From an uncultured Eubacteriales bacterium (GTDB lineage Bacteria > Bacillota > Clostridia > Oscillospirales > Acutalibacteraceae), in the NCBI GenBank assembly GCA_900315785.1, contig ONAL01000006.1:1-61290 (forward strand): a stretch of DNA of 61,290 nt. The letters run 5' to 3'. The notes below the pieces were generated by a model. It searched no databases. It was not told the DNA's origin and was given only the letters and a program-made list of their open reading frames with translations. Every line of letters starts with the position of its first letter. The stretch's first letter is position 1. Positions 5,355 through 9,255 of the stretch are shown in pieces. A program made the position numbers and the translations under genes.

Positions 5355-5777
5355 TCAGAACATTTTGCCCTCATAGGGCTTGTACGGCATAGTCTCAAAG
5401 TCGTATTCGCTGAGCTCGTCCATACTGATATTGGTGTGACAACCCTCGTGAATCATCAGATTGGAGTCCTCTCCGAGCTGCACAACGACCACGGGAGTGT
5501 TGGTTCCGAAGGCGTAACCGCATTCCCACGCGGTGCCGCTGTCGCTGTAGCCGCCGTAGTAGAGCATTACCACGGCGTCCGCCCAGTCGATAAAGCGTCT
5601 GTCGTTCATAAAGGTTTCCTTTGACCACGCTCTGCTGCCGACGGTTTCCTCTGTTCTGACCTCGTTGAGCCTGGGGGAGAACACGGTAAAGCCGCGTTCG
5701 GTGAGGATTTTCTCGGCAAGCGCTACATTTCTGAGCTCCTCTTCATTGAAAAAGGGGCTTGCAAGGTAGATTTTCAT
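5355..5777 (-). CDS. nucleoside 2-deoxyribosyltransferase family protein
   Basis: A 140-residue protein of the usual size for this family, which cleaves or transfers the deoxyribose of nucleosides or nucleotides in salvage. It starts with the family's MKIYLASPFF strand and carries the active-site segment SDSGTAWECGYAFG near residues 80-93, with the Glu expected to be the nucleophile. Its ATG overlaps the stop of the upstream HAD gene as ATGA, so the two are translationally coupled; a HAD nucleotidase and a deoxyribosyltransferase make sense together in deoxynucleotide salvage. The exact substrate is unknown. Confidence 0.9.
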   Translation of the reverse strand: MKIYLASPFFNEEELRNVALAEKILTERGFTVFSPRLNEVRTEETVGSRAWSKETFMNDRRFIDWADAVVMLYYGGYSDSGTAWECGYAFGTNTPVVVVQLGEDSNLMIHEGCHTNISMDELSEYDFETMPYKPYEGKMF

Positions 5778-6285
5778 TTGACGATAAGCTCCTTTATCTT
5801 GAATACGTCGCCGTCCATAACCTTGAAATCGGCGAGAAGCTCGCCCTTAATCTCGGGGCTGATGCTCTGGTGAATGTAGAGCGCGCTGAGACCCACTTCC
5901 TTTGCGCCTTTGATATCGGCAATGTAGTCGTTGCCAATCATAATTGTTTCGGACGCATCGAGGGAGAAGCGCTCGAGCAGGATTTCATAATAATGACGGT
6001 CGGGCTTGGAGCATTCCTCGTCGGAGCTGATAATGATTCCGTCGAAATACTTTATCAGACCGAACATATTGAGCTCGTTCTCGGTGAAGCCGCGCTGAGC
6101 GTTCGAGAGCAGATAGACGTTCTTGCCCTTTGCCTTGAGGGTTTCGAGCAAGTCGAGAACTCCGTCATAGAGCTTGATGTATGTCGTCGAGAAACATCTG
6201 AACGCGGTGCAGATTTCCTGAAGCTCGCGTTTGGTGGGCTTGACGCCCTTTGCGGTGAAGAGCTTGCGGAAAACCTTCTCAATCT
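5774..6285 (-). CDS. HAD-family hydrolase, 3' exon (split by group II intron)
   Basis: This is the C-terminal part of a HAD-superfamily phosphatase. It has motif II (YLLSNAQ), the motif III lysine (KPDRHYY) and motif IV (GNDYIADIKGA). The 512-nt exon has no start of its own: its frame opens with AG ATT GAG directly after the intron 3' end. Joined to the 217-nt 5' exon at 9039-9255 it gives 729 nt, an uninterrupted 242-residue protein of normal HAD length. The stop TGA overlaps the start of the deoxyribosyltransferase gene. A nucleotidase role is suggested by that neighbour only. Confidence 0.9.
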
Positions 6286-6376
6286 ATGTATGCCACCCCT
6301 GTGGTGATATCCACAGGGTAGGCATTTTTAACGATAGGTAACTCTTTGATATTATCTCCAAGTTTTCCCCCGCCCC

Positions 6377-6410
6377 ACACCGTGCATGCGGCTTTCACCG
6401 CACACGGCGT
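6377..6410 (-). other. group II intron domain V (catalytic hairpin)
   Basis: A 34-nt minus-strand hairpin: ACGCCGTG pairs with CACGGTGT, then a two-base TG bulge, then TGCGG with CCGCA around a TGAAAG loop. This is the canonical domain V size and layout. The catalytic triad region reads CGC rather than the commoner AGC. Confidence 0.9.
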
Positions 6411-6470
6411 TCCATCATAAATATACTTTTCATTAGATTAGTAAACCTTTCAAAAGTTAAATTTTATTGT

Positions 6471-8336
6471 TTATGCTACTTTAATTGGCTCTAGTTGAGC
6501 CTGCTTCCTTAAGCTGTTTATCTTATTAATCTGACCTTTGTTAAGGTTAAGAACAGATAAGTATTTGCATATTGTTTCAAGCTTTGTCGCATGTAATAGC
6601 TTGTGCACATCTTTATGAACGATAACTAAATTCTGATAGTTATCTTTGCCGCCAAGCTTTTTAGGGAGCTTATGGTGACAGTGAATATCATCAATATCAA
6701 GTATCGTTCCTAGAACAGCACACTTGCCATATTGCGCCGCATAAAGTGAGATTTTATTATCCCCAAATTCGGTGCTATCCGTATGCTGGTAATTGTACAG
6801 TAATTGGTTCATTACCCATAATACATATTCATCAAATTGCAGATTTTTATGTATCTCAACCCTGCCACTTTCTGTGTATTTACAAATACTTTTCTTTTTG
6901 TACATAGGGTTCTTGGTTTGCACATAGCCGATAGGCACTAATGGTTTTCCATCAACAAACCTGAGCTGTTGACTTTTACCATACCTTTCTTTTATATGCT
7001 TACTATCAATAATCCCGTGTTTCTTAACTCTACCTTTTAGCCTGTTCTTAATTATCGTGCTGACTTTCCTCTGAATAATGCTACAATCAATATTGATATC
7101 AGTAGCATACCTATAATAGTTCTGAACCCCCTCAACCATTTGATTAAACCTTTGTATTTCAAGAATACTTTGATTTATATCCTTTGGTCTTTGGATTTTC
7201 TTCACTTGTTCCATAAGCTCTTTGGTGACTTTCTCAACTGCCTTATCTCTCATATGGGAGCGAACAACATATTTGTTGCCCTTTTTGACAGCTTTGAGCT
7301 TGTAACCTAAAAATTCAGAATAGTGTCGTTTGAGATTAACAACTTTACTCTTTTCTTCTGAGATTTGAAGTTTGAGCCTGTCTTGCAGCCACAGCTTCAC
7401 AGCTATGAATACTTTATCAGCGTCACTTCGTTTTCTACAAAAGATTTTGAAATCGTCTGCATATCGCACAATATACATTTCTTTAAGATTTGTTTTTCTT
7501 AAAGCTTTATTTAGGTTACCCTTATTTGGACTGCCATTTTCATGTATCTGACATTTGTACTCTTTCTTAGTCGGCATATTTTCCCATTGAGAGGAAATCC
7601 ACCAATCAAGTTCATTAAGTACAATGTTAGATAACAGGGGAGATAATATACCGCCTTGTGGTGTTCCGCAAGTAGGGTACTGTATATCACCATTAGGCAT
7701 AACAATAGGAGCCTTGAGCATAGCTCTAATAATGCAGATTAGTTGCTTATCTCTGATTCCCATAGTCCACATTTGATTGATTAGCTTATTGTGATTGACA
7801 TTATCAAAGAAGCCCTTGATATCAATATCTACCACAAAATGCAGTCTTTGCTGTTGTATCATACGATAACATTGTGCTATTGCATTTTCTGTTGACCGAT
7901 TAGGTCTAAAGCCATTGTTTCTCTCGTGAAACTTAGCCTCGCAAATAGGTTCTAACACTTGCAAGATACACTGCTGCACTAATCTATCAATTATCGTGGG
8001 TATTCCTAATGGTCTGGTTTTACCATTAGTCTTTGGAATATCAACTCGTTTAACAGGTTTAGGCTGATAATAGCTTAATTTTCTTTGCACTATTTCTACA
8101 TATTTATCTATGGGGATAGACTTGATATCTTTAATAGTACAATAATCAGTGCCGTAAGTTTTACTACCGCTATTGCTTTTAATATTTCTATATGCTAATC
8201 GTATATTTTCGGGAGAGGATATGATTTCCATAAGGTTATCAAACTTCTTTCCCTTTTTACTTTCAGCATAGAGCTTATCAAAAGTATCTTGCAGATTGTA
8301 ATACTCATTGTGGCGTAGCCTTGTTACTTTTGTCAT
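6471..8336 (-). CDS. ltrA: group II intron reverse transcriptase/maturase with HNH endonuclease
   Basis: A 621-residue multifunctional intron protein that helps the RNA splice and copies it into new DNA sites. It has RT domain motifs (LGIPTIIDRLVQQ near 110-122, GTPQGGILSPLLSN near 224-237, catalytic YADD near 292-295), a maturase X domain (about 380-470) and a C-terminal HNH nuclease (HCHHKLPKKLGGKDNYQNLV, then H residues, about 550-595). I start at ATG 8336, nine bases after AAAGGAG; the ATG at 8345 directly abuts the Shine-Dalgarno. All key motifs look intact, so the element may be mobile. Confidence 0.96.
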   Translation of the reverse strand: MTKVTRLRHNEYYNLQDTFDKLYAESKKGKKFDNLMEIISSPENIRLAYRNIKSNSGSKTYGTDYCTIKDIKSIPIDKYVEIVQRKLSYYQPKPVKRVDIPKTNGKTRPLGIPTIIDRLVQQCILQVLEPICEAKFHERNNGFRPNRSTENAIAQCYRMIQQQRLHFVVDIDIKGFFDNVNHNKLINQMWTMGIRDKQLICIIRAMLKAPIVMPNGDIQYPTCGTPQGGILSPLLSNIVLNELDWWISSQWENMPTKKEYKCQIHENGSPNKGNLNKALRKTNLKEMYIVRYADDFKIFCRKRSDADKVFIAVKLWLQDRLKLQISEEKSKVVNLKRHYSEFLGYKLKAVKKGNKYVVRSHMRDKAVEKVTKELMEQVKKIQRPKDINQSILEIQRFNQMVEGVQNYYRYATDINIDCSIIQRKVSTIIKNRLKGRVKKHGIIDSKHIKERYGKSQQLRFVDGKPLVPIGYVQTKNPMYKKKSICKYTESGRVEIHKNLQFDEYVLWVMNQLLYNYQHTDSTEFGDNKISLYAAQYGKCAVLGTILDIDDIHCHHKLPKKLGGKDNYQNLVIVHKDVHKLLHATKLETICKYLSVLNLNKGQINKINSLRKQAQLEPIKVA

Positions 8337-9038
8337 AGGCAACATCTCCTTTCGGATTTGTTTTTCTTTGTCATACTCGAAGCTATGAGCTTGTTTACCT
8401 ATAACTAATCATATATTTATGACTTGTGGCTGTTCCTCCACTCTCATTACAAGAGCTTCATAGGTCGTGCCACTACTCTCACAGTCATTAAAGGTGCTTA
8501 TTGTTCTTCGTCACCACCACTACTAATACAGTAGTGTTAGACTGCTTTCTGCGTTCCGATAATTCTATCTGTACATATATAACCGTAGGTGCTTGCTATG
8601 AGCCTGTTAGCTTGATAGTGCATATAACACTATATGGTATTTCATAACATCAATTTTTACTTTACCACACTAACTACCATTTGCAGGTAAAGACACATTT
8701 CTATGCCTTGATTGTTTAGACCCGTACATTCACAAGTTTGTCAGAGCTTTTACCCTCATTCTCACCATAGTTATTTTATAGACCCCCGGCATATAGGTAA
8801 CATAGCTCACCTCTGAGCCACTTTCCACAGCATTGTCTGTTTGGGTTACTCTCTGCCGACTTTACCGAGCTTTTGACCCTTTTACACTTTCATGCAAAAC
8901 GCCAATCGGAGTATCAGGGAAGGCATTTCAAGGCATTACCCTATCATTCTACCTATTCAAATTATCAGTTCTCCTAATGTTTGAACTGTTACGTTCTTTT
9001 ACTAGTGCCTAACCTTTTCAGTTAGGAACGCATCGCAC
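8337..9038 (-). other. intron RNA domains I-III (non-coding 5' part of the intron)
   Basis: About 700 bases between the intron 5' end and its protein gene with no other gene. This part should fold into domains I to III and the base of domain IV, which recognise the exons. Only the GTGCG start and many short complementary pieces are clear by eye; I could not place the exon-binding sites with confidence. Confidence 0.75.
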
Positions 9039-9255
9039 TAATATCAATCTCTGTGTACTCGGGATGACGGCGGTGTACACGCTTTTTCTCGGCGTCGACG
9101 TACTTGCCGTAGTCTGCGGCAATCTCCTTGGCCGTGTAGGAAGCTCCCTTATACTTATATAATATGGAAAGCTTTTCCCAGAGCTTTTTCTGCCATTCGT
9201 TTGTGTTGATGTCGATAAGCGTACCGTAAAGGTCGAAAACATAATTTTTAAACAT
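9039..9255 (-). CDS. HAD-family hydrolase, 5' exon (split by group II intron)
   Basis: This exon encodes the first 72 residues plus one base of the HAD hydrolase. It includes motif I, FDLYGTLID (nucleophile Asp8), in the DxYGT form seen in haloacid-dehalogenase-like and YjjG-like enzymes. ATG 9255 follows AGGTGAT by seven bases. Frame stops soon after entering the intron, so functional protein needs splicing. Upstream, TTTCAA and TACTAT 16 bp apart (about 9274-9301) may be its promoter; the -35 would share bases with the divergent nth promoter. Confidence 0.9.

Follow-up and report, generated by a model that had tools for sequence, protein, structure and literature searches.

A group II intron in a clostridial HAD-hydrolase gene with a predicted 3' splice site 42 nucleotides past domain VI

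Where does a group II intron end when the reading frame of its host gene resumes only well past domain VI (D6)? The question is raised by an uncultured Eubacteriales bacterium, in which a HAD-hydrolase gene on the minus strand is interrupted by a complete group II intron (9038..6286). The window analysed comprises 61,290 nucleotides (nt) of contig ONAL01000006.1 (positions 1 to 61,290; assembly GCA_900315785.1). The Rfam match to D6 stops at 6328, and the HAD frame restarts 42 nt later, past a hairpin ending in GGCATACAT. An original prediction had placed the intron ends at GTGCG (9038) and ACAT (6286). Both coordinates are exact and the 3' end is right, though it lies 42 nt past the usual place; the extension past D6 was overlooked. 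The evidence below makes it very probable that a retromobile intron residing in the HAD gene is removed from the mRNA by maturase-aided ribozyme splicing, with the 3' site 42 nt past D6, after an added hairpin.

Exon continuity and the position of the 3' splice site

The 5' exon (9039..9255, minus strand; 217 nt) starts with ATG at 9255 and comprises 72 codons and 1 nt, including motif I (FDLYGT). The 3' exon (5774..6285, minus strand; 512 nt) supplies 2 nt, 169 codons and the stop, with motifs II to IV. When joined (217 + 512 = 729 nt), the exons form 242 codons plus the stop with A/AG as the junction codon, and the predicted spliced product reads ...GATATTA / AGATTGAG. The length, the 242-residue product and the A/AG junction given in the original prediction are confirmed by the sequence. 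Exon 2 matches Pfam HAD_2 (E 2.2e-20), and exon 1 by itself has no Pfam match. The four HAD motifs that had been claimed were found in 30/30 proteins (the window and 29 congeners): motifs I and II (LLSNA) are identical, and the Lys of motif III and GND...D of motif IV are kept. Motif I has Tyr at the position where phosphatases usually carry a second Asp.

A strong exon 2 match (E 1e-40 or better) with no internal stop was obtained in 52 of 59 congeners, and the loci of 29 among these 52 were read at the site. In all 29, compared at the A/AG site as the original prediction had proposed, the HAD gene is uninterrupted, colinear and gap-free at IDI-K-IEKVF or close variants. Two of them carry one extra residue, further upstream of the junction. 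Since every locus reads straight through the junction and the 30 proteins agree fully in motifs I and II, the comparison indicates that the insertion site and both intron boundaries are right at the protein level.

Among the distinct extension-free relatives, 29 of 32 have AY as the last intron bases, five bases past the D6 strand CCTAYC (4 of the 46 rows compared were re-matches inside extensions and were not counted). At this canonical position the window has GTTAA, with no AY. Beyond it lies a 42-nt extension of domain VII type (6286..6327, minus strand), consisting of an A-rich linker, a hairpin designated S2 (6325..6290) with an internal loop UA/GU, and the terminal ACAT. The window sequence from domain V (D5) to this end folds more stably than its shuffles (z -5.9). 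The extra segment past D6 would shift the 3' splice site, whose position is deduced from the continuity of the gene. Moving the 3' site upstream from 6286 by 1-60 nt never yields an open HAD frame.

Could the intron still splice at the canonical D6 end (after 6328), the hairpin being exon sequence of this HAD allele? Such an account would agree with an intact D6 and with a retained length, 42 nt, that is divisible by three. A stop would, however, be formed at the junction itself, giving a product of 86 residues. Such an insert is seen in 0 of the 29 uninterrupted genes read, the hairpin recurs beside D6 next to other host genes, and the window is without AY where the canonical cut would fall. 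These results make retention of the hairpin in the exon scarcely credible, and a site displaced beyond the hairpin is preferred.

Intron anatomy and the predicted splicing pathway

The whole intron (6286..9038, minus strand; 2753 nt, GTGCG ... ACAT) has the parts of a mobile bacterial group II intron, namely a GUGYG 5' end, a domain I core, D5, D6, an encoded reverse transcriptase (RT)/maturase and pairings of exon-binding sequences (EBS). The domain I core lies at 8775..8973 on the minus strand (Rfam group-II-D1D4-5, RF02004; 185.7 bits, E 1.8e-42), and D5 with D6 at 6328..6412 on the same strand (Intron_gpII, RF00029; 58.3 bits, E 7e-9). The D6 model and the fold place the putative branch-point A at 6335. 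The intron-encoded protein (IEP; 6471..8345, minus strand; 624 residues) is an RT/maturase with an HNH domain, with its frame intact and RYADD present (RVT_1, E 1.2e-38; HNH, E 1.6e-4; NCBIfam group_II_RT_mat exceeds its cut-off). Its C-terminal part also gives a weak match to an IscB model (NF040563; E 1.3e-4, with 21 bits where the cut-off is 175), for which the HNH fold is presumably responsible. A search of the intron's own genome counted one copy. The hairpin, common with Bacillus class B introns, suggests that the window intron belongs to bacterial class B.

The sequences bound in the 5' exon (intron-binding sequences, IBS) occupy 9039..9049 on the minus strand (IBS1, ATATTA, 9044..9039; IBS2, GATTG, 9049..9045). 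All EBS columns were picked by scanning, with pairing columns for EBS1 and EBS2 taken over 13 introns; the truncated L048 and the near copy L051 were excluded. EBS1 (TGATGT, 8647..8652, minus strand) pairs 6/6 with IBS1, including two G-U. It is the best-pairing run after AGTAAAAAT, and its six bases average 92% paired against -2 to -7 over the 13 introns; in the window they additionally pair 6/6 against -1 to -6. TAGTGT in a neighbouring loop had been taken as EBS1 and was dropped after the 13-intron scan. EBS2 (CAATC, 8710..8714, minus strand) is the best-pairing column in the loop after GGTCTAAA, with an average of 80% for its five bases over the same introns and 5/5 pairing with IBS2 in the window. 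The EBS3 candidate (T, 8598..8598, minus strand) pairs with exon base +1 (A, 6285). Its column, a weakly informative one, is complementary to +1 in 10/10 relatives, seven of which share one +1 base; in the held-out window U faces A.

These parts are consistent with the following pathway. A retromobile group II intron would have inserted into the chromosomal HAD-hydrolase gene, and its own maturase would assist ribozyme splicing of the intron from the HAD mRNA. In the first step the branch-point A (~6335) would attack the 5' site between 9039 and 9038, held by EBS1-IBS1 and EBS2-IBS2. In the second step the exons would be joined between 6286 and 6285. EBS3 would then pair with exon base +1, and the hairpin would bring the distant site into the active centre. 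The 3' splice site would then not be set by the end of D6, unlike in the nearest relatives with a readable end. From the sequence we infer splicing in the cell, branching from A6335, the role of the hairpin in the second step and the dependence of HAD, perhaps also of the downstream gene, on this reaction.

Unspliced, the HAD reading meets a stop after 77 residues and includes motif I only. The original prediction had argued from the frame-perfect intron that expression probably depends on splicing. A whole HAD protein does appear to need splicing, given this stop, the continuity at 29/29 loci and the exon pairings. The fit of the frame is not special in itself: a precise junction is the ordinary outcome of group II splicing, and five other extension-bearing introns are also in phase. 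The next gene (5355..5777, minus strand; 140 residues) has an ATG that overlaps the HAD stop by 4 nt, and it was matched at 2 of the 29 relatives' loci, both with the same overlap. Because its start overlaps the HAD stop codon, its translation may be affected too. A cost of the intron to HAD expression is likely, since group II introns are reported to reduce the expression of their host genes despite being spliced, as for Ll.LtrB (PMC6003770).

That cost might amount to a knock-out, if the insertion is recent, splicing inefficient and the allele transient. No exon 2 stop was seen in the 52 congeners with a strong match and all 29 loci read are intact at the site, which such an event would fit, as would the loss of expression despite splicing that the same paper describes for interrupted hosts. 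Seven of the 59 congeners have no full HAD match, so the gene may be dispensable; completeness is below 90% for four of these seven, and for one (G007) a contig end cuts the match. Against this, the window shows no damage to either exon, the ribozyme core or the IEP frame, and its exon pairings are complete. An effective knock-out is thus unlikely, and splicing of a functional intron is preferred.

Alternative 3' splicing could also regulate HAD, the canonical site giving the 86-residue and the extended site the 242-residue product. Introns with several 3' sites exist in C. tetani and B. anthracis, according to PMC4424553. Exon base +1 is A at both positions of the window, and AY is still found at the canonical position in 4 of 9 distinct clostridial extension carriers. 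The window, by contrast, lacks this AY, and the 86-residue product would be without motifs II-IV. A regulatory switch of this kind is very unlikely here, and use of the extended site is retained as the preferred reading.

Several observations weigh against this reading or limit its precision. 3' sites 3, 6, 9 or 12 nt further downstream keep the HAD frame as well, so that the exact splice base is deduced from the absence of gaps in the relatives and from the ACAT terminus. With +1 A at both positions, EBS3 does not discriminate between the canonical and the extended site. As four of nine carriers keep the canonical AY, loss of the old splice site is not general. One intron of the 13, L035, shows 0/5 pairing at EBS2. 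Selection after the insertion is not measurable, because synonymous sites have reached saturation in the comparison with the nearest relatives. The mean identity of the window HAD to 20 outgroups (0.6585) is slightly lower than that of five near relatives (0.665-0.682), and this would fit mild relaxation too. Finally, the source genome is a fragmented assembly of 1.67 Mb (57 contigs, 91.5% complete), the window being its contig C24. Positions 1-75 of the window carry the 5' end of a 16S rRNA gene that runs off the contig edge.

Covariation, distribution and origin of the hairpin

The same hairpin is present in eight other distinct clostridial sequences (nine including the window), with extension lengths of 42-51 nt. 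In a MAFFT alignment of the nine, which was not structure-fitted, 108/108 cells of the 12 pairs are standard pairs and both sides change at 7 of the 12 pairs. None of 500 shuffles matched the pairing together with the both-side changes, and 143/500 matched the number of pair types. In the model-fitted alignment 8/13 pairs change on both sides. This covariation argues that the extension hairpin is an RNA structure.

The set was assembled as follows. Two further cases (G276 and G368) were found in the order, a model (R1) was built, and a pattern scan of an 84,980-species collection was then carried out. The scan pattern was drawn from three sequences. It fixed CTACC, GGRTGG, ACAT and an 8-18 nt linker, and cannot detect more divergent extensions or those bearing S1, a stem of the Bacillus extensions described below. 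The seven covarying pairs lie outside the letters fixed by the pattern, and the invariance of the internal-loop letters and of ACAT is informative only for the window, G276 and G368, which were found without it. Ten of the 14 stretches matched were confirmed by R1 (115.9 bits or more); L094, L099, L100 and L104 were not found by R1 and were dropped. L096 is G368 and L102 is G276, and L097/L098 and L101/L106 each share one extension sequence, which leaves eight distinct ones. Among viral contigs the pattern gave 0 matches.

With stricter filters, R1 gave three matches of 140 bits or more over 394 order genomes, all of them training rows, with the rest at 95 bits or less; over 161 genus genomes only the window reached 140 bits. 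Since the Bacillus domain VII intron B.psf.I1 scores 52 bits, R1 is unable to separate Bacillus domain VII from extension-free introns. In a plasmid collection, 314 of the 354 records matching the window D5-to-end query are from Enterococcus, and none covers 80% of the query.

How did the window intron come to carry this hairpin? Its IEP is 65% identical to that of the extension-free L033 and 49-57% to six other extension-free ones matched over >560 residues. With the split, extension-free L034 identity is 72% over residues 1-313 and 58% over 315-613, and with extension carriers it is 29-33%. In an IEP tree of 14 of the 25 rows (11 fragments, split frames and near copies, including L034, were dropped), the window and L033 are joined with support 98/97, and by the starred branches the extension state must have changed at least twice. 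The D5-D6 of the window is 92% identical to that of the extension-free L113 from the same genus. The 47 nt after CCTATC, by contrast, share 88% identity with those of L093, which comes from a Ruminococcus sp. assembly and has an IEP ~30% identical to that of the window. The nearest intron by DNA, G516 (82% over 1-2372), ends at a contig edge before D5, and its 3' end is not assembled.

The tree as built requires at least two gains or losses of the hairpin, or its movement as a module. Convergent gain of the extension, or its loss elsewhere, could also supply these changes, though less simply. Movement as a module is favoured because the IEP and D5-D6 side with extension-free introns while the hairpin matches L093; most simply, recombination close to the D6 end would have brought the hairpin onto the window intron. 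We lean slightly towards a broader interpretation, in which domain VII is a portable 3'-splice-site module that occurs in Clostridia as an S1-less single hairpin and is grafted onto unrelated introns. A chromosomal metabolic gene would here depend on a site 42 nt past the normal one.

At other loci, the boundary after ACAT fits the codon phase of the host gene in L093, L095, L102, L103 and L106, the 5' and 3' pieces being read apart. The 5' host pieces match Pfam TraG P-loop (L102, L106), type IV secretion system (T4SS) coupling protein (L103) and ResIII/Eco57I-like (L093) models, and that of L095 has no Pfam match. The host gene of L093 may be broken, since its 3' piece meets a stop ~50 codons on. 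In Marasmitruncus massiliensis, L097 and L098 both carry the extension and are identical over the 2416 nt compared. Their host gene is present as two diverged copies, one interrupted by each intron, and 394 of 623 alignment columns match in the 3' flanks. Judged from these sequences, the extension-bearing introns look mobile, and recently so in M. massiliensis.

Among relatives of the window intron, the extension-free L034 and L041 and also L112 lie at, or no more than 3 nt from, one site (5' exon CDEFG), in what we take to be a conjugation coupling-protein gene. The common site suggests homing to conjugative elements. Exons were readable for L108, L109, L112 and L113 (5' side) among nine loci. 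Group II sequences were also observed in phages. Bacillus phage AR9 (L129, KU878088) has, by Rfam, a group II intron at 1093-2590 in an RNA polymerase beta' gene (RF02004, 80.7 bits; RF00029, 55.2 bits). The annotation calls the open reading frame of this intron a homing endonuclease and adds a group I note, and a group I intron lies beside it (RF00028, 86.7 bits). PBS1 (D5-D6) and the Staphylococcus phages PALS_2 and MarsHill (~60 nt of D5) match as well.

Comparison with known systems

Group II introns are seldom found in housekeeping genes, according to PMC4424553 and PMC6003770. The original prediction had stated that bacterial introns mostly lie outside genes or inactivate them; this is fair as to their rarity in such genes, but class B introns inside coding genes are already published (Table 1 of PMC3261151). 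Chromosomal metabolic genes that hold an intron are uncommon but known. On the host side, the locus is a candidate example of dependence on group II splicing by a bacterial chromosomal enzyme. What it adds is a reduced domain VII outside the Bacilli, carried by an intron whose lineage otherwise lacks the extension where its members are readable. If the S1-less form holds in a wider search, it tells which part of domain VII is expendable in nature.

The extension-free introns of the same lineage are L109 (76% identical over 1-2706), L033 (74% over 1-1789) and L113 (70% over 1-1803). L033 has the exon-binding layout of the window intron. All three, from the same genus or order, have the canonical AY end after D6, unlike the window. 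An IEP on an Enterococcus mundtii plasmid (H114), compared by IEP only, is 55% identical to that of the window. In C. tetani C.te.I1 and B. anthracis B.a.I2, as described in PMC4424553, the choice of 3' site also departs from a simple D6 end. The window intron differs from these alternatively spliced introns in having one D5-D6 unit.

The closest likeness is to the Bacillus class B introns with domain VII, a rare feature (B.c.I4, B.th.I5-I7, B.psf.I1 and kin), for which PMC3261151 likewise describes a hairpin past D6 and a shifted 3' site. In B.th.I6a, removal of the extension is reported to make lariat-3' exon accumulate, a sign of a role in the second splicing step. The titles and abstract openings of the related literature surveyed name no clostridial domain VII intron. 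In Bacillus, according to the same paper, the extension is common to divergent introns, mostly within coding genes, as in the clostridial set. It measures 53-56 nt (once 70 nt), compared with 42 nt in the window and 42-51 nt in the clostridial set, and comprises a highly conserved stem S1 and a stem S2 with an invariant internal loop. The host here is clostridial, in contrast, and the gene a chromosomal metabolic one.

The end of B.psf.I1 (Alkalihalophilus pseudofirmus) after D6 reads ACCCGAAAUGGGU (the S1 stem), then AAAUGCUACCC...GGGAUGCAUUAUAU. Folded alone it forms both stems, with a stability not above that of shuffles (z -1.15). The clostridial extensions match its second part (AAAUGC-CUACCC...GGGGUGGCAUACAU) without the first, and the S2 internal loop near the hairpin base has the same letters in B.psf.I1 (CUACCC...GGGAUG) as in Clostridia. 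None of the nine distinct clostridial sequences has S1, and a short A-rich linker stands in its place; most of them were retrieved by the scan, whose pattern demanded a short linker. By its sequence the window extension is an S1-less, shorter domain VII, of the same kind as the Bacillus extensions but short of full membership under the published description.

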